NCBI GenBank assembly: GCA_947034895.1
Contig: OX344761.1
Span: forward strand, 36,778,863-36,842,862
Length of the DNA stretch: 64,000 nucleotides
Reading direction: 5' to 3'
Origin: Rhytidiadelphus loreus
Taxonomy: Eukaryota; Streptophyta; Bryopsida; Hypnales; Hylocomiaceae
Below are positions 1 to 60,300 of the stretch, piece after piece (the stretch's first letter is position 1; every line of letters starts with the position of its first letter). The notes beneath the pieces are model-generated. The model saw only the letters and a list, made by a program, of their open reading frames with translations, searched no databases and was not told the DNA's origin. Made by a program: the position numbers and the translations under genes.

Positions 1-1437
1 AAAGTCCTTCAAAGCTTGCAAAAACAACAAGATGAGCTTGAAATGCTCAAAAAACACACGTTGACAACTTTGGCTCAAAAATGGCCAAAAACTCCACGTT
101 AATGGAGCATGTATATAAATTTGCCAAAAAATGGCAAGAAGGGGTGAGAAGAGAGGAGAATGAGTGCCCTTTTATACATTTCCAAGGGCACTCAACTCCT
201 CTCATTTTCCTATGGTAACCTTATCACTTAGGATTTTCATCCTAATTTTCCCTATTTTTACTTCTACGCTGGACCTAACTTCTAACTTTTGGAGTTTAAC
301 TCCAAATCACAAACGGATTGTGACATTGGCTTCAGAAGTCCATTTTTAGTTTTAGAGGTACCCCCTCTCCCTTTTCTATCACTAAAAACTCAACGAATCC
401 TAACGCCAACTTAACGACCAAAAAGGGTAAAAATCCAACTTTTGGAGTTTGACTTTTGTATGAAAAGTAAGTGTCCTAAGCTTTTTAGTAGGTGTAAGGG
501 AGTAAGAAAAGACCTAACTTCGACCTCATTCCGATTTCGTATGCTCCCGAAACGCCGGTCAACTCCACGGTAATCTTTAAATTTGCCGGTCTTAGAGGAA
601 TCTTGCAGGTTCGGGTACTTTTGGCTATCAAAATGTCTTGAAACTTGTTGGAGCATCTTATTAACATAAAACAAGCTACCCTAATTTTTAGTGAGATTTT
701 ACCGCAATCTGGGTAATTTCTAAGAATTTTTCATCATAGATTTTGAGCGGTTGATTGCTCGGAAAAATATCTTTGATGATAAAAAAAAACCGAGACTTTT
801 TGTGGAACCTCTCATGGAAATCCACAACTCATGTACAAGCTCATATTCTTACTTTGCACAATGGTCATAGGAGATTTGAAGGATGCCATCTCCTAGAATT
901 ACCGGTGTCTAGGGAATCTTCCACATAAAGAAGAATTTTGGTGAATCGACTTCGCCGTTGAGCTCCTAACATGGTATAAACTCCAAAACACCATCCCTTG
1001 GCCATAGATTCTCTCTATTGGCCGGTCTTGAATTTGTAACACCTGTAAGTTAACAATTGGGGTTTCTACTAAATGGGACAAACGATTTGGAACTGAAACC
1101 TCTCTTTGGGAATCGACTTTAGGGTTCTCACCTAGGTTCTTTCGGACCAAATTGGCCATAGTTTGTCATAAGCAGGGTAGATTAGGCTATTATGGGCAAT
1201 ATCACTCAATATATACAGTTTGCCCTATTTCTCGGGTTTCAACCTATGTACAAGCGGGTTTATGAACTAACTAAGCCAAAACACTCAATTTATGCCCATA
1301 TACCGTATTGATATGTGACATACTCATTTTGGCTTTCCACTCTTTTTTCGGCTTTTTGTACTTAAAACCTAACTTAATTTTGCAAAAATTGAAAAAAAGA
1401 AAATCATGAGTCTCAAGTGACGAATTGGGAGCTCACA
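1..1437 (-). repeat. Long repeat, probable LTR, copy 1 (cut by window edge)
   Basis: This stretch aligns with 12590-14314 in the same order. Both contain a purine-rich block followed by 'gcccttttata', a 'tttggagttt' or 'ttctggagttt' block, the phrase 'taatttttagtgagatttta' and an 'agcggttga' block. Both finish at 'GGCTCACA' or 'AGCTCACA'. Read on the minus strand the end becomes TGTGAGC, the usual start of a plant LTR, so I infer an LTR or solo LTR lying on the minus strand. The two copies are strongly diverged, so this is old. No long ORF belongs to it. The boundary at 1437 falls inside the HECT-like coding frame that follows, which suggests insertion into that gene. The other end lies outside the window. 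Confidence 0.55.
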
Positions 1438-2720
1438 TAGGGCCACTGTAATTTGAGATCCTCCAAAGAACTCCAACCCCGTGATAAAAACAACAAGCTT
1501 CATTCTCTCTGAGTGGGTCATCTCATGGACAGTTGTAGTGAACCACTCTTGTTGTTCTTCGCTGATTGTGTTCTCAAACTTCACTACTTTCATGAATTGA
1601 TGTGCCTCGATGCTACAAGATCCTGAAAAGGCAATTTTCAAGCAGTCTGTAGTAAGTTGCATCACTTCACTCCTATATTTCTCTTTCTTTGTAGCATCAA
1701 CGGGTGCCGTCTCTATTGCTTGGAAGAACCCACCTCTTAGGGCTTTTCCCACTAATTCCCTACCTTTGAATAAATAAGACCAAATGATGCTCCCGAATTT
1801 CTTCTCCACCTGTTCAACCCAAGTGTTTTCCTGCAATTCGAAGTTTACAAATGACCACCCCAACTCCTCATTGATTTCTTCTTCAGCTAGTTGAGAAACT
1901 AACAATACAACATGTGGAAATGATTGCCGAAGTTGATGCAAGATGCTCCATTCGGATGGGAAGGAAAGTTAAAAATCCCTCTCTAAATTCGATCGGAGCT
2001 GGATATCAACACCTTGAGTGAGATCTTGTGATTCAGGAACTTGGTTGCATATCATCAATAACGTTGAATACGTGAATGGTTTGTTGACTTCCAAATCTTT
2101 TGAAGCAATCTCCCATATCAAGTGACCAACCATATACCCCTGAAAAATGTCAAATGTTGATGAGAAACAAATAATATTCAAAATCCATAATTTCAATTTA
2201 GAAATGTAAGAACATAATTGCAATTGAAACCCGAATTTGATGTGTAAGGGACAATAGGTACACCATCTTTGATGCAAAAAGTGGTACATACATACCGTAT
2301 CAAGCTACAACTTTGGACGAATAATGTCTGAGTCTTTCATTGGATGAAGAAGGGCCCCTTCTCTATTTGTATACTCAAAAATAGGGCTATAGTACTGATG
2401 AAAAACAACCAATTGATTAGGGTTTAAATAAACCACTAAAGAATGAATGAATATTAATGCAAACAAATTTGTAATAATCTAAATATGTTTACATAAATGT
2501 AAATTGCAAGATAATGAGAATACTTACAAATGGTAAAGATATGAATTGCTTCCAGCAAGTTGTTAGCCATGAATTCCAGAGGCCGTCTTCATCAATCGTG
2601 TTCTTCTCTTCAATACCAGAACCATACATATATTCCACTTTGGCTTTGTAACATGCATTCTTCGTGAGAACAATTTGTCGCCATTGGGAACAAAATGCTT
2701 GAAACTCCTAGCCTTGAGTA
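1438..2720 (-). pseudogene. HECT-like E3 ubiquitin ligase domain, broken 3' part of the gene
   Basis: Three minus-strand exons can be read. About 2710-2528 carries 'YMYGSGIEEKNTIDEDG', which matches the conserved acidic patch of the HECT N-lobe, and ends at a GTAAG donor. 2394-2296, after a TCATCAG acceptor, carries 'PIFEYTNREGALLHP'. 2139-1438, after a TTTTTCAG acceptor, carries 'GYMVGHLIWEIASKDL' and later 'MKLVVFITGLEFFGG', which resembles the start of the C-lobe. HECT enzymes pass ubiquitin through a C-lobe cysteine in an 'LPxAxTC' context. Here the frame runs into the LTR-like repeat at 1437 before any such cysteine. In-frame stops occur at 2305-2307 (TAG) and 1969-1971 (TAA). The nearest family I know is the HECT protein annotated as G2/M-phase-specific E3 ligase-like in fish, which is linked to transposons. 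The HECT call is by recognition of scattered motifs, so moderate. Confidence 0.6.
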
Positions 2721-2738
2721 ACTTTGATGTAAACTGTA

Positions 2739-4062
2739 TCAACCAACCTTGAAATATCTGAAAAATGCATGTACGAGTGGAAAACTTGAAATTGAAGGAA
2801 GTACCTCTGCCCTCTGGTATCGGAGTAAAGCCATCTCCACTTCTTTCCTTCTATGCAATAATTCTTCTTCTTCCATGTCTTTTGGTGCACTATTTGATTT
2901 GCACATCAATTCAAGCAATTTGAAGGAGATTTTCTTGGTACAACGAAGTTTGAACAAGTCTTCCAACTCATGGATGCTCTTGAGTCCTTCTTCGCCATGT
3001 GAATGAAGCACGATATGAGCTGCATCAAGGTATGGAACATCTTTGGATGCTTGTCCGATCATATAAGCAAAATCGTCCCAATCCCTCCAAAAAAGTCTCG
3101 CATTCTTCTCAAACTCCAACTTCAAATCAACTAGAGTGAACATCTGCATTGTAACATGCATTACGACTTTGTTGAGGTCCACATCGGTAAGGTTGATGCT
3201 TCTTCTTAGGTTCCTCCTTTCTACCAATTTGATGACGATGTTCTTAATTGTTGAAGTTGGACTTGCAAGTACCTTCGTTTCAAGCTCGATGATGGACTTC
3301 CACAACGAATTGCTCCTCTCTATGTCCTCACAGTCTTGAATGGTTGTAGGGTCTATTTTCTTATTTCTCCTCTCCAAAGCTGCAAAATATGCCTCTTGCA
3401 AGCGTATCCACTCATCGGAAAAGTAATCTAAGTTTGTCTCATCTACAGTTCCAATACCTTCAAAAGTAGGGGCGGTCAAATCAATGAAGGATGATGATGA
3501 TGACGGCATCTGAGATGGAGGCAATTGTGGTGGAGGTGTCTCCAATAAGGACAATGGCGATGGAGGTGTCTCAAACGAAAGTTGCTCCGGTGAAGGCGTC
3601 TCAAATATGGCCAATGACGATGGAGGCGTCTCAAATGCAAATTGCTGCGGTCGAGGTAGTTGAAATGGAGGTGTTTCCAATGGAGGAAGTGGACATAGAG
3701 GCATCTGCAAAGGAGATGCCTCGACACGTGGTGACAACTGCATTAGAGGCATCTGTAACATGGACAGCTGCTCGGTACTTGTCCTTGGTGCAAGTACGTA
3801 TACTACAACAGTGTTGGCACTAAGTTTGCCATAAGCTGCATCTACTCGTTGAACGTATGACTCTAATCTATACGCTCTCTTCGACTCTACCCCTTTCTGT
3901 TTCTTAGTACGCTTCAAGAAGGATCCACTAACAACACTACCAACTGTGTGTTGGTATTGGGGCAATCTAGAGAAATGCTCAGCTACATGGAATTCAACGC
4001 TATCTAGTGGAAAATTACTAGGGTAATTTAGACTTGCCCACTTCTTTAAGTCAGATAGACTC
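2739..4062 (-). pseudogene. Proline-rich N-terminal part of the HECT-like gene, 5' end lost
   Basis: An open frame of about 440 codons. It has a short charged N-terminal part (about residues 1-95) and a proline-rich low-complexity part (about 100-190). That part holds several imperfect repeats of 'FETPPSPLSLLETPPPQ' type, roughly every 14-18 residues. A helical, charged part of about 240 residues follows, ending 'VHAFFRYFK'. HECT-type coding begins directly downstream on the same strand, so I read this as the N-terminal half of the same protein. There is no ATG at the 5' edge: the frame opens on a GTG made by the terminal CAC of a CACTA-type MITE at 4062, and the first ATG is about 100 codons in. 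The true start was probably displaced by the MITE and palindrome. I recognise no domain in the N-terminal or helical parts. Confidence 0.5.
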
Positions 4063-4237
4063 ACTAGAAGAAACCCATGTTTTAAATTATGTTTTGTAAT
4101 TTTTTAAAACGGATTTTAGGTGACGTCCATTGCAACATACCCATGTTTTTATGTCAAAATTGATGTTATATTGAACGTATTGTTGACATAAAACATGAGT
4201 ATGTTGTGATAGATGTCACCTAAAATCTGTTTAAGAA
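4062..4237. mobile_element. CACTA-type MITE, 3' end missing
   Basis: It starts CACTAGAAGAAACCCATG, the CACTA terminal pattern, and then carries the family core 'GGATTTTAGGTGACGTC' and its inverted copy 'GATGTCACCTAAAATC'. The sequence is closely related to the hairpin MITE at 4644-4858 but stops about 30 bp before the expected inverted end, at the point where the left arm of the palindrome begins. The 3 bases before it are ACT. It interrupts the 5' side of the HECT-like gene. Confidence 0.7.
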
Positions 4238-5261
4238 AATAAGTGCAAGCCCAAATGCACGGATGACAGTTTTCCCAAGACCAATTGGAGAAAGAGCATT
4301 AGTTTTTGCATGTCCTCCGAAAATTGGAATGCATAGAAGGGCACTACAGCTTCATCATTAGGAGCCATCTCTTCTTCACATCAAAGAGCTCCAGGCATAG
4401 TTCTCCGTGAGTCTCCTTCTTCATTTGTTTCTTCTTCAAGTGTCTCTCCTTCAACTCCTTCTTCCTCCCTTGCCTCCACATCACGTGCGGTACTATCAGA
4501 TGTTGTTCCCTCAGTAGCTTCAACACCTGTACAATACATTACCCGTACGTTTTTAGTCATTTCTTGATGGTACACAGTGGCCGAGTAATGGAGTGCCGTC
4601 CATTACTCATTGGCCACTTCAATTACAAACCGTAGCGGTAAGTCACTATAAGAAACTCATGTTTTAGGGTATGTTTTGTAATTTTTTAAAACGGATTTTA
4701 GGTGACGTCCATTGCAACATACCCATGTTTTTATGTCAACATTGATGTTATATTGAACATATTGTTGACATAAAACATGGGATGTTGCAATAGATGTCAC
4801 CTAAAATCTGTTTAAAAAAATTACAAAACATACCCTAAAACATGAGTTTCTTATAGTGACTTACCGCTACGGTTTGTGACTGAAGTGGCCAATGAGTAAT
4901 GGATGGCACTCCATTACTCGGCCACTGTGTACCATCAAGAAATGACTAAAAACGTACGGGTAATGTATTGTACAGGTGTTGAAGCTACTGAGGGAACAAC
5001 ATCTGATAGTACCGCACATGATGTGGAGGCAAGGGAGGAAGGAGTTGAAGGAGAGACACTTGAAGAAGAAACAAATGAAGAAGGAGACTCACGGAGAACT
5101 ATGCCTGGAGCTCTTTGATGTGAAGAAGAGATGGCTCCTAATGATGAAGCTGTAGTGCCCTTCTATGCATTCCAATTTTCGGAGGACATGCAAAAACTAA
5201 TGCTCTTTCTCCAATTGGTCTGGGGAAAACTGTCATCTGTGCATTCGGGCTTGCACTTATT
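4238..5261. repeat. About 1 kb near-perfect palindrome (inverted duplication)
   Basis: The left arm (4238-4643) and right arm (4859-5261) are inverted copies with only scattered mismatches. Both contain the same short reading frame (minus 4381-4575 and plus 4903-5118, 'MTKNVRVMYCTGVEATEG'). The CACTA-type hairpin MITE at 4644-4858 lies at the centre, so the whole kilobase could fold as one hairpin. The right arm continues at 5262 into proline-rich coding sequence, while the left arm is joined to the broken MITE at 4237. This suggests the right arm is the original sequence and the left arm is an inverted duplicate. Confidence 0.85.
4644..4858. mobile_element. CACTA-type hairpin MITE, 215 bp
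   Basis: Its ends are CACTATAAGAAACTCATG and CATGAGTTTCTTATAGTG, exact inverted repeats, and the element is almost palindromic throughout. It shares the core 'GGATTTTAGGTGACGTC' with 4062-4237 and 40043-40265. Flanks are AGT and ACT; they are mirror images because the host DNA here is itself inverted. No coding capacity. Confidence 0.85.
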
Positions 5262-5347
5262 GGTGGTGTTGGTATCCGCACATTTGTGCTTGGTGGTGGT
5301 GGTGGTGGTGGTGTCTCTTGACTTGCAAGTGGTGCTGTGTTCTCCAT
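5138..5347 (-). pseudogene. Short proline-rich reading frame at the edge of the palindrome, 69 aa
   Basis: The frame opens with ATG at 5347 and reads 'MENTAPLASQETPPPPPPP' and then 'FPRPIGERALVFACPPKIG', ending at TGA 5138-5140. It lies on the same strand as, and upstream of, the proline-rich HECT-like gene. It may be a displaced upstream exon of that gene, cut off by the palindrome. The poly-proline comes from a GGT/ACC-type microsatellite, so part of the frame may be chance. No domain recognised. Confidence 0.25.
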
Positions 5348-5869
5348 TTTGCAATGACTGTGATAAAAAATGTTCGGAGTAGGTATGTCTGCAAACAAGT
5401 GATACATGAACCCTTTAATAATGACCAAATCACAACATAAGATTGCACAAGAACATAACTTGACAAATACAAATTTATACAACCCTAAAGCTAGGTTCAT
5501 TCAATCAAGGTTTAATACATGAAATTAACTCCCAACTTGCGTTCTTTAGGATTGATTCAAACTAACTTAGCAAATACATAAAAAAATGCAATGTACCTCA
5601 CAAAAATCAGGCAAAAAACACCTGAAGAAAACACAATAATATTTAAAGGTGTGCTAGTTCCTTCTTTCTTGCCTAAATGATCAACCTTAACACACTACAA
5701 CTTGCATGTGCTAAGTACTTGTTCGTGGCTTAACTTTAGTGTATTATTAGGACCAAACTAAGTGTATCAAGTCAGCATTCAATGAATGTAGACACAAAGT
5801 TCCAAGGCTTATCCCCTTTTACTAGTTTACTTGGGACTTAAGTCTATGTTTTCTTTACTATTTGTCCTA

Positions 5870-6425
5870 GTCTTTTTCAATGACAAGGTGTGATGTAAGC
5901 TTATGTCTCAGTCTTTTTTGATGACCAAGGTGTGATGTAAGCTAATGTCCTAGTCTTTTCGATGACAACGTGTGATGTAAGCTAATGGCCTAATCTTTTT
6001 CCATGACAACATGTGATATAAGCTTATGTCCTAGTCTTTTTTGATGACAAGGTGTGATGTAAGCTTATGTCCTAGTCTTTTTCGATGACAAGATGTGATG
6101 TAAGCTTATGTCCCATTCTTTTTCGATGACAACGTGTGATATAAGCTAATGTCCCAGTCTTTTTCGATGACAACATGTGATATAAGCTAATGTCCCAGTC
6201 TTTTTCGATGACAAGGTGTAATGTAAGCTTATGTCCCAGTCTTTTTCGATGACAACGTGTAATGTAAGCTAATGTCCCAATCTTTTTCGATGACAACATG
6301 TGATGTAAGCTAATGTCTTAGTCTTTTTTGATAACAACGTGTGATGTAAGCTTATGTCCCAGTTTTTTTTGATGACCAAGGTGTGATGTAAGCTTATGTC
6401 CCAATTTTTTTGGATGACCAAGTGA
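5870..6425. repeat. 41-bp minisatellite, about 13.5 copies
   Basis: Tandem units of about 41 bp follow the pattern 'gtctttttcgatgacaa' + 'ggtgtgatgtaag' + 'cttatgtccca'. I count 13 full units and one partial unit. Two positions vary in a structured way: 'aagctTatg' or 'aagctAatg', and 'aaGgtg', 'aaCgtg' or 'aaCatg'. The array lies between the integrase pseudogene and the palindrome. The apparent repeat protein on the minus strand is a by-product of the array. Confidence 0.95.
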
Positions 6426-6970
6426 TTTCAATCATCATCACGTAGACACGTACAATTGTATGTTACAACAGAAAATCGTGAAAAACATTTGTAGGTGACT
6501 TTAATTTTTGAATAATGTATTGATATTTCTAAACTCAAAAATTTACCTACCCCCACGGTGATAGGTCCTTAGTACATTTTTTTTTTTTAAATCCCGCTCA
6601 TGGGCTCACAGTCTCACAAGCTCACACTCATAGACTCGCATGCTAGCAACCCTGTAATGAACACTATGATTGCAACCAATCACTTGTTCTAATATCGAAA
6701 CATCATTAGTTCAAGGTGCCTAATTATTTGAAATGAGAGTCCTTTCTAATTTCTCTAGCCTCTCAAGACAAGCGCCAAGGTGGCTCCTAAAACCGAACAA
6801 GGAAACATCAAATGAAAGTTATGAAACAATTAAACAATCGTCACATTGAGTTTGAAAGTGCTAATTAATTATCTTAAGCAGTAACTGGAAGGCTTGTATA
6901 CTTTCAGTAGAATGTTCAAATGGAACAATTTGTTCTATAGGAATGCCACTCTCATGAGACAAGTAGCAAA

Positions 6971-7210
6971 CTAGCAATAATGGGACATGAAGTAGTGTAA
7001 ATGAAAACATTCTACTATATCTTTCCCAACCTTCCTTCTTTCATATGCTGCATTCCGAAGGGCAGAAAGGACAACCAACAAGTCAGGAACTTCAAACATA
7101 GTGGGATTTGGTGCACCTCTACTAGCAATCCAAGTTCGTAAACCACATGGGCCCAAATCTTGGATACCAATATGCTCTTGATTATCTTGAGCATGCATGT
7201 CTTGAATATG
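6971..7210 (-). other. Possible 3' exon of the integrase gene or separate fragment
   Basis: A minus-strand frame includes 'IQDLGPCGLRTWIASRGAPN' and 'FEVPDLLVVLSALRNAAYE', with non-random composition. It lies about 130 bp downstream of the integrase frame on the same strand and could be a spliced 3' exon encoding a variable C-terminus. I do not recognise it, and the acceptor is not certain. Confidence 0.25.
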
Positions 7211-7340
7211 TGATGTCCATTTATACCAGCATTACAACACAATTGTAAAACACAATTAGTAACAATTGAGGACAATATAGAATGGAATATCAATAAGAAT
7301 TTGTGAACTTTTATATTCACCCATGAAGACGTTCATATTC

Positions 7341-8645
7341 TCAAAAATATCTTGCTGGCACATGAGATGGACGAAATCTTCCTTGCTCATTGATTAATTG
7401 CACACGGTGCACGTTCCAAATCCCAATCCACTCATTTACAATGTCTTGTAAAACATGTATGTAGACAGCTTGAAAAGAAGTCCTATGATATGGATCATCA
7501 GGAATGAAATACCCTTGTTGAACTATTTATTGAATAGCATTTTTGTGAAACCAAATAACTTTCTTCCACAACAACCTCCACCAATTTTCTATCCTTTGAT
7601 TGTGCACTGATGAACCAACAAGGAATGGATTTTGAATCCTTGCTTGTACTTCCAACATGTGTCTCCGAATTAAAGCATGCTCGGCAGCAAAATCAGACCT
7701 AATCCGTACAGGAGAACCAAATTTTGTGACAGCTGCAAAAAATGGTTCAAAAAAGGTTTTTTGGATTTTGTTTGGTGCAACTCTAGCATACAAGACGTAA
7801 TGTGAAGCCCCATCAATGCAACCATGTATGCGTAGCCCGTACATTGATAATTTATCATATGCTGCATAAAAAATGTATTTTCAATGTTAAACAAATGAAA
7901 GGTGAGACACTTTGTTCCTAAGCTTTGGAATGAAGTTTAAATGAAGAGATAAAGTCACATTTTTAACTTACACTTTGTTCCTAAGCTTTGCAAAGAATTT
8001 AAAATGAAGAAATAAAGTCACAATTTTAACTTACACTTTGTTCCTAAGCTTTGCAAAGAATTTTAAATGAAGAAATAAAGTCACAATTTTAACTTACAGT
8101 CAATATGCCAAAGGGCCATGGGTAAAGAGACATTATATTGCCGATGAACAATGGGTAATGCTCGTCTACGTCTATCATAATGTGCCTCTGTACATACGCA
8201 AAATTTAAACATATTAGAGTTTTTTAACCAACATAAAGAAAAAACCCAACAAAAAAATTGAATCTAAAATGTACCTGATATGGATTGCAAGGCTTTTTCC
8301 ACCGTACGCCTGGGTGCCCTAATGTGCAAGCATGCAAGTACTGCCTTCACATGCCGGATTCCCCAATTAGCTCCATATATGCTCTCGAATAGGAAGGGCA
8401 TCTTGAATTTTGTTGGACATTTCTTCTGTTGTGAAGCTATGATGTACTTGAAATTTATATCCCAAAGCTTTGGTCATCATTTGTTTAAGTTGTCTTGGAT
8501 CATAGATGTTCAACGACTCTGCAATTTTTTTGAATCGAGTTTGGGATTGAGCTCCTTCCTTTAACATAGTTTGCACATAGTCAACCAATTCACATGTAGC
8601 CTCTACATTTGATTCTGCCATACCACTACACAACCATGCCCACAA
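7341..8645 (-). pseudogene. DDE integrase/transposase of eukaryotic IS3-like type, three exons, broken
   Basis: Three exons splice in phase: 8645-8275 (donor CAG|GTAC), 8187-8098 (acceptor ACAG, donor T|GTAAGT) and 7861-7341 (acceptor TTATGCAG). Exon 1 gives an N-terminal helical part and 'WGIRHVKAVLACLHIRAPRR', like the region before integrase cores. Exon 2 ends 'MALWHID', placing the first catalytic Asp at 8101-8099. Exon 3 gives 'IHGCIDGASHYVLYARV', 'RIRSDFAAEHAL' (second Asp, 7694-7692) and 'GSSVHNQRIENWW' (Glu, 7589-7587), with 34 residues between the last two. The block 'SVHNQRIE' is typical of integrase-core proteins that are abundant in fish, cnidarian and other eukaryotic transposons. 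Two lesions break it: a frameshift near 8400 in exon 1 and an in-frame TAA at 7527-7529. After that TAA the frame stays open to TGA 7341-7343. Confidence 0.8.
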
Positions 8646-8871
8646 ACATAATTCAATTATGAGTTTTTTGAAAATATCTTAACAGAATTATAGTATTTTG
8701 TAGAAATGAATGTCACATTACTTCTTGAAACAAGAAACTAAATCCAACCATGACATTTATTGAATACAATTGCACAATAACTAAACTCTTTTGGACCTTG
8801 ATGAACTCCTGACAATGATATAGTTGCATGTGAATAATTGTACCAAAATCCTGATGCTTCGAAGGAAAACC

Positions 8872-9080
8872 CTAAACCAGCTGACAGGAGTTCTTCCTAA
8901 GGAACGAGGCCAGTTGCAGAAGCTTCGGGACCTTTATGTCTACAACAACAATCTTATTGGTGGGATTCCGGTAGAATTAGAGAACCGCTCCAGACTTACT
9001 AAATTGAATATGGAGTATAACAAGCTTTCTGGACCCATTCTTGGGTAGTTAGGAAGTTGCACTGAACTTGCTTGGGCACA
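8872..9080 (+). pseudogene. Leucine-rich-repeat receptor kinase fragment
   Basis: The plus frame reads 'NQLTGVLPKERGQLQKLRDL', 'YVYNNNLIGGIPVELENRSR' and 'LTKLNMEYNKLSGPILG'. These are two to three plant-type LRR units (LxxLxxLxLxxNxLxGxIPxx). A TAG at 9049 interrupts the next unit ('LGSCTEL' follows in frame). There is no kinase domain, signal peptide or further LRR around it. It is a short captured or relic piece of an LRR receptor kinase, about 230 bp upstream of the integrase gene and on the opposite strand. Confidence 0.75.
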
Positions 9081-9753
9081 AATCCAGACTGCATGTCCTT
9101 CACTGATAATTTCCAAATACAACACAACTCCAAGAACAAAAAAGAAACGATCAATTACTTTATAAAATTCTCCAAATATTTGTGATATTTCTAGTTCGTG
9201 ATCTCATATTGAGTTCGAACATCTGGTGAAGATTCAAGTGTCGAATTTCAATACCTTTTTCAACAATAACTTGCTTTCAGTCGGTAAGAGGAATTCAATC
9301 AGGGAATGCATACTGAAGTCAAGTGGAGGATAGAATGATGAAGGAGACTATTGAACCCGAATGGCTGAATGGTCAATTTTGTTGAATTGGCACGATTCCA
9401 ACGGCAAAAATTGTGACATATATGTACTGTACATAACGGTTTAAAGTCTAGGACATGTATGGATTAATGTTTCAGAACATGCTTTCTGACTTAAGGTGAC
9501 AAAATATATATTGGAAGACCGCCAATTCAATTGACGTTAGAACCAAAATACCTCCAGGTTACCAGCTTCCCATTCGAGCACGTTGAGTTCCTTCCAACCT
9601 ATACTGGAATTGAAAGCTGTGAAACCCGTTCTCGATCCCATCGAGTGCCTCACAAATTTCGAAGACTTCTCTTGACTTACAGTTGCAAGCTCCTTTTGGC
9701 TTTGTTAAATTAATTTGCCTCCAAAAGATCTCTCAAATGGTCTCATCTCTGGA

Positions 9754-10335
9754 CTAGGGGAGGACACTCTCACTACATTTGGGGTACCCACGTGTGGCGG
9801 TGGAAAAAGTAATACATGTAATTCACCTTGAATAAACTATAATTTCATTCTAAAATTTTGAGCTTTGTTTAACAATGACTAAAGGTTTCTATTGACAAAA
9901 AATTCAATTCCAAATAACATAAGATATATTGTCTAGAAAGGGTTGAAAAATGAACTAAAATGGCATGTTCTCCAACTAAAATATTTATAGAGCTCACATG
10001 AAGATGACTATTGCATCAATATTCAACCAAAATAAACTTTCAATAGAAAGCTATTCTATATAATTTTTTTTTCATTTTTCAAATTTTTTTTCTTATATAA
10101 TATAGAGGTGTGAAAGTTATTTTCAACTTTACAGTGTATCTTTTTTCTTCAAAAATTTATAACTAATTACTATTAGCACAAAAAAATACCAATAATTCAA
10201 AACATAAACTTCTAAAGTAGTAAAATCTATCCATAATTTTTTTTTGAAAAAGAAATTAAATTTTAAGGTGCATTACTTGTTTTACTTTTTCTGCCGCACG
10301 TAGGTTGCTAAAACATAGGGAGTGTCCTCCCCGGG
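9754..10335. mobile_element. hAT-like non-autonomous element, 582 bp, 8-bp target duplication
   Basis: The ends are CTAGGGGAGGACACTC and, in inverted orientation, CCCGGGGAGGACACTC. Further inside, 'AAAAAGTAATACATGTAAT' matches inverted 'AAAAAGTAAAACAAGTAAT'. It is flanked by identical 8-bp repeats TCTCTGGA at 9746-9753 and 10336-10343. An 8-bp duplication and ends starting C-N-N-GGGG fit the hAT superfamily. The interior is AT-rich and non-coding. Confidence 0.75.
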
Positions 10336-10499
10336 TCTCTGGAGACCGTCCTCAAGCCCCATATGCCAAACCTGCTTAAATTGTAACTCAACTGGGATAT
10401 CAGTACATGGAAAAGTACAGATTGAAACATATCCTGCCATAGGAAATTGCTAACATCGTCATTTCTGTTGCAGGTTTGGTGAAGTTCTGCAGTCAGAAG

Positions 10500-10780
10500 A
10501 AGAAGAATAGGTGGCAATTCCACCGATATTAAAGACTAAATCTACTTCAATAATTCCCATCACGCCGGACAAAATGGTTGTTCCAAGACCTACTCGAAGG
10601 CCGATTTCCGAGAAACAAGCTTTGCCCATTGGTGGGCATGGAAGAGGACACCGAGGATCAGAGAGGGAAAAGTCTCCATCCAGTGAAACACACTAGTCTG
10701 ATGAAGAGGAGCGTGCTGAGCTTGATAGAGAAGGATCAAAAGGGGTTACGAAATCTAGATAGTTGGTGATGAACCTGCGG
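10500..10780 (+). other. Unrecognised coding-like fragment
   Basis: More GC-rich than its surroundings. One plus frame (10511-10696) reads 'MVVPRPTRRPISEKQALPIG' and 'GSEREKSPSSETH', then a stop, then 'SDEEERAELDREGSKGV' in the same frame. This looks like a disordered, charged segment of a real protein with a nonsense mutation. The family is not recognised. Confidence 0.3.
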
Positions 10781-10937
10781 GAGCTGTGAAGAAATCAACT
10801 CTTAGAAGAAGTAAGCGGAATCAAAAAAAAGATGATACATGAATACATCTTCTAACAATGATGATTATGTACCAAAATGGCAATTAATACTTGATGAAGG
10901 TGAAGTATCTACGCACCAGGATTCAGATAGGGCACAT

Positions 10938-11381
10938 TCAACGATGGTATATTAATTTTTTATTTATGACAACAACCACATAAACACCATAGAAACCATA
11001 CCTCTGCTGAATTGTCCCCTTCTGAGCTAATCTTGTAGACATCATTTTAATTCCATCAATATCAACAACAAAGTTGCTCATCACGCATGCATACCCAAGA
11101 AATAATGAAGAAATGGTCCCAGAATGAAGCATCGTCCGAAACATGTGAAATCGAGGTATGCTGAGTAAGTCCACAATTCTTCCACTCCTCAGCTTCGGTG
11201 CCGAAGCAGCAATTTCCAATAGCGTCATCCACATGACATGTGAATGGATGAAAAATGAGAGTGGGTCGTGAAAATTTTGACAAAAATTCTTGAGCGCAGG
11301 TACCCCGGGCTTGAGCGCGGGTGACCCACAGTTGAGTACAGGTACCCCACGCTTGAGCGCGGGTACCCTAGGCTTGAACAA
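10938..11381 (-). other. Unrecognised minus-strand frame with heptapeptide repeats
   Basis: A 147-codon frame. Its N-terminal 30 residues are four heptads of 'PGVPALK' type, produced by the 21-bp tandem repeat at 11290-11379. The C-terminal part includes 'LGYACVMSNFVVDIDGIKMM', which may be a gene relic. There is a GTATGG donor-like site near 10995. No family recognised; it could equally be chance. Confidence 0.2.
11290..11379. repeat. 21-bp minisatellite, just over 4 copies
   Basis: Tandem units 'ttgagcgcgggtaccc' + 'taggc' start at 11290, 11311, 11332, 11353 and 11374 (partial). Period 21 keeps the reading frame, giving the heptad repeat above. Confidence 0.9.
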
Positions 11382-11399
11382 AGATTACACCGTATGGCT

Positions 11400-14314
11400 C
11401 TTTTGGTACACCGTACCCATCCTTGTTTAGTTTGTTGGTCCCTCCCCGTTCAGTTGCTAGTCCCGTCCTTGTTCAATTGCTGAATGGTTTCTAATTGCTG
11501 ATTTTAAATTGGTTTTAGTTTTGGTGCTAATTTTTAAATTCTGCAGAATAACAACTCACTAATCAAAGCTTAATGATATATAATCAAAATTTTAAACACT
11601 AAGGTTTACTTTCTAACTAAGTACCAAAGAAAGCTAATTTTGGATTCTGACAATAAATTTTAACTAAAGAACTAGTCCATTGGTCAAGAAACTTTAAGAT
11701 AAATTCTAATTAAGGAATCTAACTAAACAATTTAAGAAATAATCTAAATTTTGTGGAATTTTGTGGAATAAGATTCAAGCAAGCAAATTTCAAAGGAAAA
11801 TCCTCTATTCTCAAGCAAATTTCCACCACTTTCTCATGGAATTAAGCACCAAAACATTATCACATGCAAAGGCAATTTTCAAGCATGGAAAGAAAGGAAA
11901 ATTCTAATGGGATCAAATGTTCTAAGACTTGATGCCTACTAAAAGGTAACAATTTCAAATATTTAGGGTCAAAGCTTTGCCGTGCAGGAGCAACATGGTT
12001 TAATGGGTTCCAATTTCCAAAGACGATGTTTTTACTATTATAAGCCAAAGCTTCGCCATGCAGGGGCAACCTGCAACCCTAGGCTTAATAGGTTCTAAAG
12101 ACGATTTTTTTGACTAATTAGAAGCCAAAGCTTTGCCGTGCGGGGGCAACCCTAAGTACAAACGGTGTCCCCAGACAAAGCAATAGTATTTTGAAAGTTC
12201 AATTTTTAAAGGAGGTACACATGATAGTGTTTAACCGAACATTAGCAATTAATCAAACCAAACATTCGTTATACAACAAATTTTGACACGTAGTGATACA
12301 TAAAACCTTTTGACCAAGTTTAGCTTTGCCGTTTTAAAGTTTTTAGATCACAATTTGTTTATTAGTATTTGAAAGAATCATAAAATCAAATAGAGTTTAG
12401 GAATTTTTTCCTCCTAAACTCTCGAAAATCAAAGTTTTGGGGGCTTGAAGCTTCCAAACTCAAATAAGGAAACAAATCAACTTAAATAGTAATAGAGTTT
12501 GGGGATTTTCTCTTCCAAAACTCTTGAAAATCAAAGTTTTGGGGGCTTGAAGCCTCCAAATTCAAGCAAAAAAACAAGCCAATCTTTAAAGGGACCCTCC
12601 AAACCTTCAAAGTACAAAAGAATTCAAATAAAATAGTCAATTCTTGGCTTTAAAAGTACTTCGACAACATTTCAATAGCATAACAAGAACAACAACAAGA
12701 AATGAAATAAGAGAATGAGGGCCACTGACAACTTTGAAGAAGGCCCTTTTATACTCTTTTCCAGCCCTTCCCCATTAAGTTGTCAGTAAAAAATTTCTTA
12801 CTTCCAACTTAAATATTTTTCTAAATTAACCTAATGTAATTCGCAAAATATCCTTTGTTTAATGGCAGAAATCTCTAGAATCCTCTCCATTTAGCTAATC
12901 AAATCAAATCCAAGATTTTATTCCAAAGATATTTTGAAATTAACCTAATTAACCTAGATATTTTGCATATTAATCCTAAGTTAATTCCAAATTGTATTTC
13001 TTTAGTTCAAAGTTGGATTCTTACGCAAAAAAAGAGATCTTGAACAAATCCAATCTTTGATTTTCCAAAAGACATTTGTAAAATCACCGTAGATTAATCA
13101 CAAATTACTATAAAAAAAAAGCCAAACTAAGGGCTGACCCTCTCTATCTTTTAGGAGACAACTCGAAATCAAAAATCAATAGTGCCATCGCATTCAAAAG
13201 ACTCCAATTAGCCTAGAGGACCTCTAACCCCTGCTTCTTCGGCTGTTTTTAAGCGTAATTTCGAGTCACGATAACTCCAAATAAAAGTCAAAACTCTAAC
13301 TTCTGGAGTTTGCGCTTTCTAATGAAACTATCTAACTAAAGTGGCTTAGAATGTTTATGGGAGTAAGAATTGATCCTTGATTTTCTCCATTTGGACATTG
13401 TTAGCTCCTGGTACACCGATCAACCTGCTACCAAGTTATAAATTCTTGTGAAATTCGATGTCGGTCTTAATTCCAGTACTTGGGAATGTTGGAATGTTAG
13501 AATGTTTTCAAACTTGACATGGCTCTTTATTAGCACACAAAACTCCATCCTAATTTTTAGTGAGATTTTATAGCAATATTTGTAATTTCTAGGAATTTAC
13601 TAATGCGTTTTTAAGCGGTTGACTTCCCATGGAGTCAACGTAGAATTTTTCAATTTTATGAAACTTTTGGGAGAACATTTAGGACATTCCTAGAATCTTA
13701 ATGCAAGTTTCACGCTCACATTGCACTAGTCTAAATATAATAAATTTAAATAATTTCCACTGGGGGGAAATCATTCTAGATATCGAGGGAATCTTGAATG
13801 ATTAGATCTCAATTTGACCTTCTAGCATGCTTTGACCTAACAAAGCACCTTTTTGTATGCTTCAATCACCTTTTCCTCCATCTTGGTTTACAAACGGCTT
13901 GTATTCTCAAAACTACCTACAATGTTTAAAATAATAAACCCAACTCTTTCTCAAATTGGATTTTGACTCAACATGACTAGACTCTATTACTTAGCCAGTT
14001 TGTCACATACATACTTATACATGTTGTTTTGTATGAACAAGACACTAGGATTGACTAACTCTGATATATACTCTCTTCTCTCAAAATTACTAACTATTCA
14101 TTTAAACTTACCATTAAGATTTAAAATTAGTGAAAACATAAAGTTTTATGTGTTCCACGTTTCTAAAACCACTTTTGATTACTTTGGTAGGGACTTCTAT
14201 CAAAACTCTCAATAACTCTCTTTTTATGTGTTTTTGCATAAAAATAATCTAAAAACTAACTAAAAATCGCAAAAAATAGATTTAAAGTTCCAAGTGCTAA
14301 TTTAAGGGCTCACA
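11400..14314 (-). repeat. Long repeat, probable LTR, copy 2
   Basis: 12590-14314 matches 1-1437 block for block and ends at GGGCTCACA (TGTGAGCCC on the minus strand). The part from about 11400 to 12590 has no counterpart inside the window because copy 1 is cut, so its membership is inferred. It contains internal repeats: 'ccaaagctttgccgtgc' with 'ggggcaacc' three times (11969, 12041, 12123), and 'aatcaaagttttgggggctt' twice (about 12427 and 12529). No coding sequence. I could not fix the left boundary or a target duplication. Confidence 0.5.
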
Positions 14315-40042: not shown

Positions 40043-40265
40043 CACTATAAGAAAGCCGCGTTTTAGTTGGCAACTTGGCATTTTGTAATTTTTTCAGACG
40101 GATTTTAGGTGACGTTGGAAAAAACAACTTGTGTTTTTTACATCCAATATGACATCCGGATGTCATATTGGACGTGAAAAAACACAAGTTGTTTTTTCCA
40201 ACGTCACCTAAAATCTGTCTGAAAAAATTACAAAATGCCAACTAAAATGCGGCTTTCTTATAGTG
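40043..40265. mobile_element. CACTA-type hairpin MITE, 223 bp
   Basis: The ends are CACTATAAGAAAGCCGCGTT and the near-exact inverse. A 3-bp target duplication TTA flanks both sides (40040-40042, 40266-40268). The whole element is a nearly perfect palindrome. It contains the 'ggattttaggtgacgt' core shared with 4062-4237 and 4644-4858. Confidence 0.9.
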
Positions 40266-57157: not shown

Positions 57158-57289
57158 ATACCCATGAATATAATTGAAAAGCGTTTTTTGGTCCCAAAAA
57201 TGGATGAATGTAGAAATCCAATGCTTCACCACATTTTAAGTACCACCATTTTGGCACTTTTTCAAAAAGGAAAAATAATGACCTAACAT

Positions 57290-57387
57290 TGAATGTCATT
57301 GTTGACATAAAAATAAGGGTTGTTAAATTTGACGTCACCTAAAATCTAACAATTTAGACATAAAAAAACTCTAGTTTCTTATAGTGA
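57290..57387. mobile_element. Right end of a CACTA-type element (fragment)
   Basis: 'gttgacataaaaataagg', then 'gacgtcacctaaaatct', then 'agtttcttatagtg' corresponds to the right half of the hairpin MITEs at 4644-4858 and 40043-40265. I could not find its left end. Confidence 0.6.
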
Positions 57388-60300
57388 CCCATACCCCTAA
57401 TTTTGCCACCCATATCCATCTGCTTGTACCCCTAATGCTCATGCCCATTCCTTATATTTTTATTCATAGTGCTTGTGCCCTTTATGTTCGTGCCTACATT
57501 TTAGCATCGAATGCTACATCATAATCCCAATGCTATGTCACTTAGTAATAATAAACTCTAGATGGGAACAATGATTTTTTTTCATAGGTCTAAATCCAAG
57601 ACCTAAAAATCTAAATTTGTTTACATTGAATGATTTGTCTATCTTGTCTTACTTGATGGACACATCTAGTGACCCTAATCCGCATGATTGATGTGATAAC
57701 CCTGATAAAAAATATATTTTGGGGTACGCAAATTAGGCATGTTGTCACCTAAAATTAGTAGTCTTACATAATCCAATCCCCAAATTTGAGGATGTGGATT
57801 AGAAGTGTTCATCTGCAACTAGCTTCCATCCACTCAACATTTGAATGCTTCACCCCTCTGTCTCTTCTGCCATTTATCCGTGTTGTCTCTTGATTCTTGA
57901 TGTTGACAAACATGTACCGTACATGCTTTCTCTTACACCATAAAAGGGCAAGGATGATCATTTGTAAACGTGTACATTGTATAAGCATACATGTGATTGA
58001 GTTGATAGGTGACATAATTTGATTTTAAGTACGTGAGGTCATTAGGATGAAAGTGACTCTCTCTTTGATATTTGATAACTTTTGAAGATAACTTGTAATA
58101 GTGTGTATTGTGTAAGCTTAGGTATGAGTTGATAAGTGACATAATTTAATTTTAAGTGCGTGCACATTGACACTTCATATGAGTAGATCGAGGAGTAGGC
58201 CACTTTGTGTGACTAATTTTACTCAATTTTGGCCATGGAACTATAACAATTTAATGACCCTTTAGATTCCTATAATTAAATTGGAAAGGTTGCCTCAACG
58301 TGGTCTTTATTGTATTGTATATCGCTTCAAAAAATGCTTAAATAATTATTTAAGTAATTTGTAGGCAAGAGAGGCATATGATTTGATGCATGCAATATAA
58401 TTTTACAAATTTGGTGATTATATTTGTTATAGTGGTTGGATTCCAAGTTATTGATGGCTATGATAAAACCTTTAAATTTACAACTAGGCAAAAATTTGAT
58501 CCTCTCTGCTCTACCAATAATGACCAATTGAAGATTTTGGAATGCTAATTAAAATGTTTAAATTTCAAAAAATTCAATTTTTAAAAGAGATGAATATAGA
58601 AATTATAAGTTTTAAACTTGTGATTTTTCAATTTTTCAATTTTTCAATTTTGTGCCTATTATATTTCAATATTTGTGAATTTATAAAATTTATTATTTAT
58701 TATTTGTTAATTTAAGATTTTTTATATTTTAAATTATAAAAAATCTATGAATTCATATCATTGAGAAAGTGGAGGGTGGAGCCTGGTGGAGCAAACTTCA
58801 AATATTTATGCTCTAATGTATTATAGTAGATGAGGGAACAAAGTTTGAAGGCTAAAGATTCAAATGCCATGTCTAACTAATTGTGGATTTTGTAAAGTCT
58901 AGAAATAATAATTTGTGTGGCCCATATATTACATAGAATGATCTCAATATTTGGCAAACAATGATAGGATTAACCACTCTATGTCTTATAATTTTTTTGT
59001 GGAAAGACTCCCTAAACTCCAAATTCACCAACACACTTATATTCAAGATGTGGACTATCTCCTTGTATCCCCTAGACACTTTAGGGGTAAATTTATACCA
59101 CTCAAATTCTGCCACATGTAGAGAAGGTCTATCCAAAACCACTACATTGATCAAAAGATCACTTGGTGTATTTTACAAACTTGTAGTGTTTTGTATGTGA
59201 GATACACAAAAATTTCCCATTGAGATACTTTGAATTGAACTCATATATATTGAAGTAAGACAATAAGATAATACCTAATTCCATAGAAGAAATATAGAAA
59301 TCACTTATTCCAATATAAACATTCAAGCAAGAGTAGCAAATGGATCATAAAAAATTGATGCAATCACAAGAAGATCCCAAATAATTCCAAATCTTTGAGT
59401 GATAGCTAGTAATAGACAAAATGAAAAAAACAATTGATACTCGTCAATTCATCACTATAAATTAACCCTCCACAACAAACTCATCAAGATATCACCTCTT
59501 GTAGCTATGAAGTATTAGAAAGTATCAAAACAATGAAAAGGGGTTTAGAATCTCCATATAGACCTATCAATCTATCGTGCAAGATGAGACACAAAAGAAA
59601 GGAATCAAATGGTAGTTTGATTTGGATAAAAGTCTGAGAATGCTTGCTCATAATACCTCCATTTTCTTAAAAATCCAATCAATATGAATGAATTTTATAA
59701 TAATACTTCTTTTTTATATGGGTTTTTCAAAGTGAGAAAGAAAATAAATCAAATCTCTTGAACCCTTGTGAATAATTGATGAGGAATTACTAGTTTATGA
59801 ATATATAATGTCTCTATGTTGAATACAAGGAAAAAATTCAACTCATTCCTTGTTAGATTAATCTTTCAATAATAATTCAACATATATTATATGTAAGGTC
59901 ATCTTGATAGTCGAAAGTCAATAAAATTCTTGCTATAATTCATTAGATATCAATTTTAATCACTTCCTATAAAACGACAATACAACTATTGAGAGACCCC
60001 TTGATAGTTTTAGAGGTGATAACTCCTATTCACATATAGAAAATGACCCCTTATCATTAACATAGATCAAAAGATTGATCATTGTAAATCAAGATAGTAG
60101 GATCCCCTAATAGTATGTCTACTATCCCAATCGATAATTTACACCATCATAGTGACCATTGAAAATAAGCATCAAATGATATTTCAATGAATTAATAAAA
60201 CAACATTTAACTATTGTAATCAAATCAACTGTGAAGACACAATCATGATACTATCAAGTACAACAAATACCATACATTAAAGGAAAAAAATATGGAATCC

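Follow-up and report, generated by a model that had tools for sequence, protein, structure and literature searches.

Does a transposon in a moss genome carry its own ubiquitin ligase? This question was raised by a stretch of 64,000 nucleotides of Rhytidiadelphus loreus (the window; C1:36778863-36842862 of a 407-Mb genome in 489 contigs), in which remains of an integrase gene and of a HECT-like gene lie on one strand. Most of a decayed transposon with a transposase gene and a HECT ubiquitin ligase gene lies in the stretch, and nearly intact copies elsewhere in the genome, at C2:34042837-34054165 and C3:17876643-17887935 (the C2 and C3 copies, 11.3 kb), moved with both genes. With a probability of roughly 80%, this is a decayed element of the IS3EU/GingerRoot type, in the full-length copies of which inverted repeats enclose a DDE transposase gene followed, on the same strand, by one for a HECT E3 ligase.

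Boundaries and genes of the window element

The decayed DNA transposon measures 17,198 bp including inserts (C1:36773080-36790277) and lies mostly within the window, at positions 1..11415 on the minus strand. The original prediction had given its extent as 1438-8645; the element proved to be longer, with its left end 5.8 kb ahead of the window start and its right end at 11415. These ends were located because window positions 11415-11289 matched the repeat that terminates the C2 and C3 copies. The termini read TACGG..CCGTA and the inverted repeats are 89% identical across 236 bp. On the integrase side the repeat occupies 11180..11415, its minus strand beginning TACGGTGTACC, and pairs with C1:36773080-36773315 at the other end; it is 72% like the C2-copy repeat over 127 bp. 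An exact 6-bp target site duplication, CCCATC, follows at 11416..11421, with the same six bases immediately before the opposite end. Within these limits the integrase gene comes first and the HECT gene lies downstream of it.

The three integrase exons that had been named join in frame, and their spliced read-through scored 128 bits against PF24764 (cut-off 26), with 85 bits for exon 3 alone and 135 bits for the C2 copy. Exon 1 (8275..8621, minus strand, like the other exons) was read from the first Met in alignment with the relatives P0001 and P0006 and contains a frameshift near 8385. Exon 2 (8098..8187), joined by an in-frame splice, ends in the WHID motif with the first catalytic Asp. Exon 3 (7318..7861) holds the RSD and SVHNQRIE motifs with the second Asp and the Glu, the NQRIE block included, and is broken by two in-frame stops. 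The predicted end of this exon at 7341 did not hold, being one such stop, and a fourth exon (6971..7219, start approximate) had been missed; it was recognised because the relatives P0003 and P0005 extend into it, and it matches the C-terminal parts of these two as well as that of the C2 copy. The integrase regions matched in the C2 and C3 copies showed no stop. The C2 integrase showed a weak family match to the bacterial transposases IS481 (44.7 bits) and IS3 (21.4 bits), far under the curated cut-offs of 224 and 160, and differs from these in being a eukaryotic, spliced gene. A PDB search with the integrase profile returned a single weak match, which was unrelated.

The second gene was rightly taken for HECT-like: the open reading frame (ORF) at 1369-1968 scored 26.7 bits against PF00632, above the cut-off of 23.9. 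The gene is in pieces, all on the minus strand. An N-terminal piece (MENTAP..., 5138..5347) was assigned by its likeness, judged by eye, to the N-terminus of the C2-copy protein, and is parted from the remainder by a palindrome. A large proline-rich exon and the region after it (2811..4060) form an ORF, in the same segment order as in the C2 copy; comparison with that copy also gave the following segment (2524..2756) and a short one (2301..2397), each with one in-frame stop. The main part of the HECT domain (1438..2138, 77% identical to the relative P0018) has one further stop and ends before the catalytic Cys, being interrupted at 1438, about 45 residues short of the C-terminus, by an insert of 3796 bp. 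The missing C-terminus with the catalytic Cys was found beyond the insert and outside the window, at about C1:36776364-36776503. In the C3 copy the gene is open over 542 and 387 codons, in two stretches with one supposed intron between them.

Nine HECT relatives (P0018-P0026) were kept from 347 candidates. Against PF00632, four of them scored over the cut-off, two under it and three gave no match; scores of relatives reach 58 bits, the value of the C2 copy. The catalytic Cys motif is present in some of the nine. When the profile of the relatives was compared with the PDB, all 54 sequences at E≤1 were HECT-type ligases by name, the best matches belonging to the NEDD4/WWP2 and HUWE1 group (WWP2 at E 2.8e-6). 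With these ligases the element protein shares the C-lobe and the catalytic Cys motif; it differs in being transposon-encoded, in having no recognised N-terminal domain and in an identity of only about 25-45% between transposon lineages. The window HECT read-through by itself matched only two myosin chains in the PDB (E 0.23). No named animal or plant protein was among the 34 matches from 6413 candidates in the search for HECT relatives. Among viral contigs scanned with two alignments (A2, 78 pattern matches; A1, 50), and among genome contigs scanned with A2 (141 pattern matches), tblastn confirmed no relative.

Copies with both genes and gene-less relatives

The C2 and C3 copies both contain the integrase and the HECT gene and are 98.7% identical from end to end (95 mismatches and 50 gap positions over an alignment of 11,336 columns). 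Their inverted repeats of 1.09 kb, 98.8% identical, end in TAGGG..CCCTA. The target duplications differ, with AACTGA/AACTAA (five of six bases) around the C2 copy and CCTGGG/CCTGGG (exact) around the C3 copy. The claim that both genes belong to one mobile element was thus borne out.

Searching the genome for further copies with both genes had been proposed as a test, and the joint-element claim passed it. At least 19 HECT and at least 55 integrase matches were grouped manually into 13 HECT and 18 integrase loci (C2:28.49 and C2:28.50 Mb counted as one; one integrase locus found only at E 4.5e-4). An integrase locus lies within 30 kb at nine of the 13 HECT loci, where chance alone would give about 0.03 pairs (computed with 17 integrase loci). 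At seven of the nine, namely the window, C2:34.05, C3:17.88, C4:28.98, C3:8.48, C1:50.57 and C1:2.98, HECT lies downstream on the same strand, with a spacing of 26 kb at C4:28.98 and 15.5 kb at C1:2.98. Since the terminal repeats are shared and joint loci are so far in excess of expectation, a chance neighbourhood of the two genes was rejected. Independently of this genome, an ENA contig 282,641 bp long is listed for both the integrase relative P0013 and the HECT relative P0036, presumably the same one judging by its size.

Three HECT loci (C1:13.50, C3:35.10 and C5:50.04 Mb) represent a third, distant HECT lineage with about 22-26% identity. At C1:13.49 a diverged integrase lies 17 kb from the HECT gene of this lineage, on the opposite strand.

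Relatives without either gene were also detected by their ends. The window-type terminal repeat had 28 genome matches (25 candidates scored), which beyond the window element make seven inverted pairs with spacings of 2.4-7.1 kb. Of the HECT and integrase matches listed, none falls inside them. The ends were read for six of the seven pairs, that at C1:32.89 Mb being left out. Five have termini TACGG..CC(G/A)TA and the sixth reads ..CCGT at the checked end. The 6-bp target duplication is exact in four pairs, agrees in five of six bases in one, and is unreadable in one because another element end abuts the pair. Six genome matches were obtained with the C2-type repeat, four of which terminate the C2 and C3 copies. 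At C1:47809525 a C2-type repeat adjoins the end of a window-type gene-less element, apparently a nested insertion.

Correlated divergence of the genes and proposed role of the ligase

Pairwise identities of integrase and HECT correlate across the nine joint loci (r 0.87, permutation p 0.0002). The correlation persists without C1:13.49 (eight loci; r 0.77, p 0.0002) and also without the C3 twin (seven loci; r 0.69, p 0.0006). The codon pattern of the HECT exon is one of purifying selection: between C2 and C4:28.95 (376 codons) the ratio of nonsynonymous to synonymous divergence (dN/dS) is 0.077, with 84, 54 and 190 differences at the three codon positions, at a saturated dS of 2.6. For the integrase, dN/dS is 0.075-0.097 over the comparisons (0.076 for C2 versus the window). 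The catalytic Cys is retained in all eight aligned HECT sequences (alignment A4).

A number of observations weigh against the reading of a two-gene IS3EU/GingerRoot-type element. At C4:66.31 and C1:13.49, two of the nine loci with both genes, these lie on opposite strands. Among the matches listed, nine of 18 integrase loci lack a HECT match at a distance of up to 30 kb, and four of 13 HECT loci (C2:54.97, C2:28.50, C3:35.10 and C5:50.04) have no integrase nearby. The latter two counts would speak for two unrelated repeat families that are neighbours by accident at the window locus, but in the window, C2 and C3 copies both genes are enclosed by a single pair of terminal repeats, flanked by matching target duplications, making that explanation extremely improbable. 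At C2:54.97 and C2:28.50 a terminal repeat was found 2-3 kb downstream of HECT, oriented as expected. Further points concern the HECT gene itself. In the C2 copy it has one in-frame stop, and its predicted structure is poor (mean predicted local distance difference test score, pLDDT, 63.8); a fold search with it in the PDB gave no match at E≤0.001. Saturation of dS in the informative comparisons makes dN/dS values rough; the decayed pair of the window and C4:66.31 gave 0.40 over 229 codons, and the C2/C3 pair 0.395 from five differences, which are too few. HECT also diverges faster than the integrase and, at C1:2.98, HECT sides with the window lineage (60% versus 37%) and the integrase does not (60% versus 64%). 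On these last two grounds, an exchange of genes between elements is possible.

The HECT gene could be a host gene or fragment that was passively captured and rides along without serving the element, in the way of gene fragments within other plant transposons. A leucine-rich-repeat gene fragment lies within the window element (8890-9040), so host pieces do enter, and just two near-full-length C2-type copies were found. Passive capture is nonetheless improbable, considering that HECT occurs in several diverged element lineages, that its divergence follows that of the transposase, and that it shows codon constraint and an invariant catalytic Cys. Alternatively, the protein may have kept the fold as a non-catalytic partner, e.g. 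a DNA-binding or transposase-assisting factor. Pfam scores only its C-terminal HECT part, the upper part is unrecognised and the model is poor, as would suit such a partner; no part of the protein, however, is better kept than the catalytic Cys with the motif around it, and this alternative is considered unlikely.

For a two-gene element of the IS3EU/GingerRoot type, the transposase would act on the TA..TA ends to cut or copy the element, and insertion would proceed by DDE-type integration with 6-bp staggering. The HECT ligase is predicted to be catalytically active and to serve the element. It would most likely mark host proteins that silence or restrict the element for removal, or else tune the transposase level. 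By analogy, selection may maintain the ligase in a plant transposon lineage as a means of removing host proteins that silence or restrict the element, a ubiquitin counterpart of the TET/JBP enzymes of fungal IS3EU elements; this is put forward tentatively, as one possibility. Accessory enzymes carried by transposons show routes of escape from host control; if several diverged lineages retain a ubiquitin ligase together with the transposase, this would suggest protein degradation as one of them. Whether the ligase has such a role can be tested on the C2 and C3 copies, which are nearly identical.

Classification, insertions and neighbours

The IS3EU label of the original prediction suits the termini and target duplications. 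According to the part of PMC10045372 consulted, GingerRoot and IS3EU belong to a single lineage whose members have TA..TA ends and 6-bp target duplications, and the portion of PMC12730594 consulted gives TAYGG..CCRTA ends for fungal members. An integrase-like DDE transposase, TA..TA termini and 6-bp duplications are common to the window, C2 and C3 elements, and the grouping fits on these features rather than on a tree; the elements here differ in additionally carrying a HECT ligase gene. The inverted repeats of Selaginella GingerRoot are reportedly 100-150 bp, and those of the C2 and C3 copies are longer (1.09 kb). The prediction had further pointed to no described plant transposon with this gene pair. 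The superfamily as such is not new to plants: GingerRoot, which is placed together with IS3EU, comes from a clubmoss, Selaginella lepidophylla (PMC10045372, same part). The HECT cargo, on the other hand, appears undescribed so far: the literature search, with the original GingerRoot paper and Repbase outside it, gave no text with both 'IS3EU' and 'HECT' and no recognised paper on a HECT-carrying transposon, and HECT is not mentioned in the consulted portions of PMC4255032 and PMC12062965. The closest parallel in cargo is in rust and truffle fungi, where, according to the same portion of PMC12730594, IS3EU elements carry TET/JBP and alpha-kinase genes. These are likewise IS3EU-type elements with an accessory enzyme gene, but their cargo is a DNA dioxygenase and a kinase instead of a ubiquitin ligase, in another host kingdom.

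The breakage of the window element by a long terminal repeat (LTR) element, miniature inverted-repeat transposable elements (MITEs) and a palindrome, as predicted, was seen in all three forms. The insert that splits HECT (C1:36776504-36780299, of which 1..1437 lies in the window) has TG..CA ends and a duplicated 5-bp TAGGG. A two-LTR element was ruled out as terminal direct repeats were not found, and the insert is therefore described only as LTR-like or a solo LTR. The palindrome (4238..5261) has arms 96% complementary and contains a second, inverted version of the 5' region of HECT; a hairpin MITE forms its centre (4643..4859), with a second copy at its edge (4061-4240). The region 4061-5261 looks like an inverted duplication produced by template switching between MITE copies. 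Relatives of this MITE are present elsewhere in the window (40043-40265 and 57288-57388). Also inside the element are a MITE-like sequence with inverted ends of 18 nt (9752-10337) and, between integrase and HECT, a tandem array of 13.5 copies of a 41-bp unit (5863-6418). In keeping with a plant host, the window holds, besides the leucine-rich-repeat fragment, a Sina-type gene, a Copia ORF and a short-chain dehydrogenase/reductase (SDR) gene, the top PDB matches of which are plant-type reductases by name.

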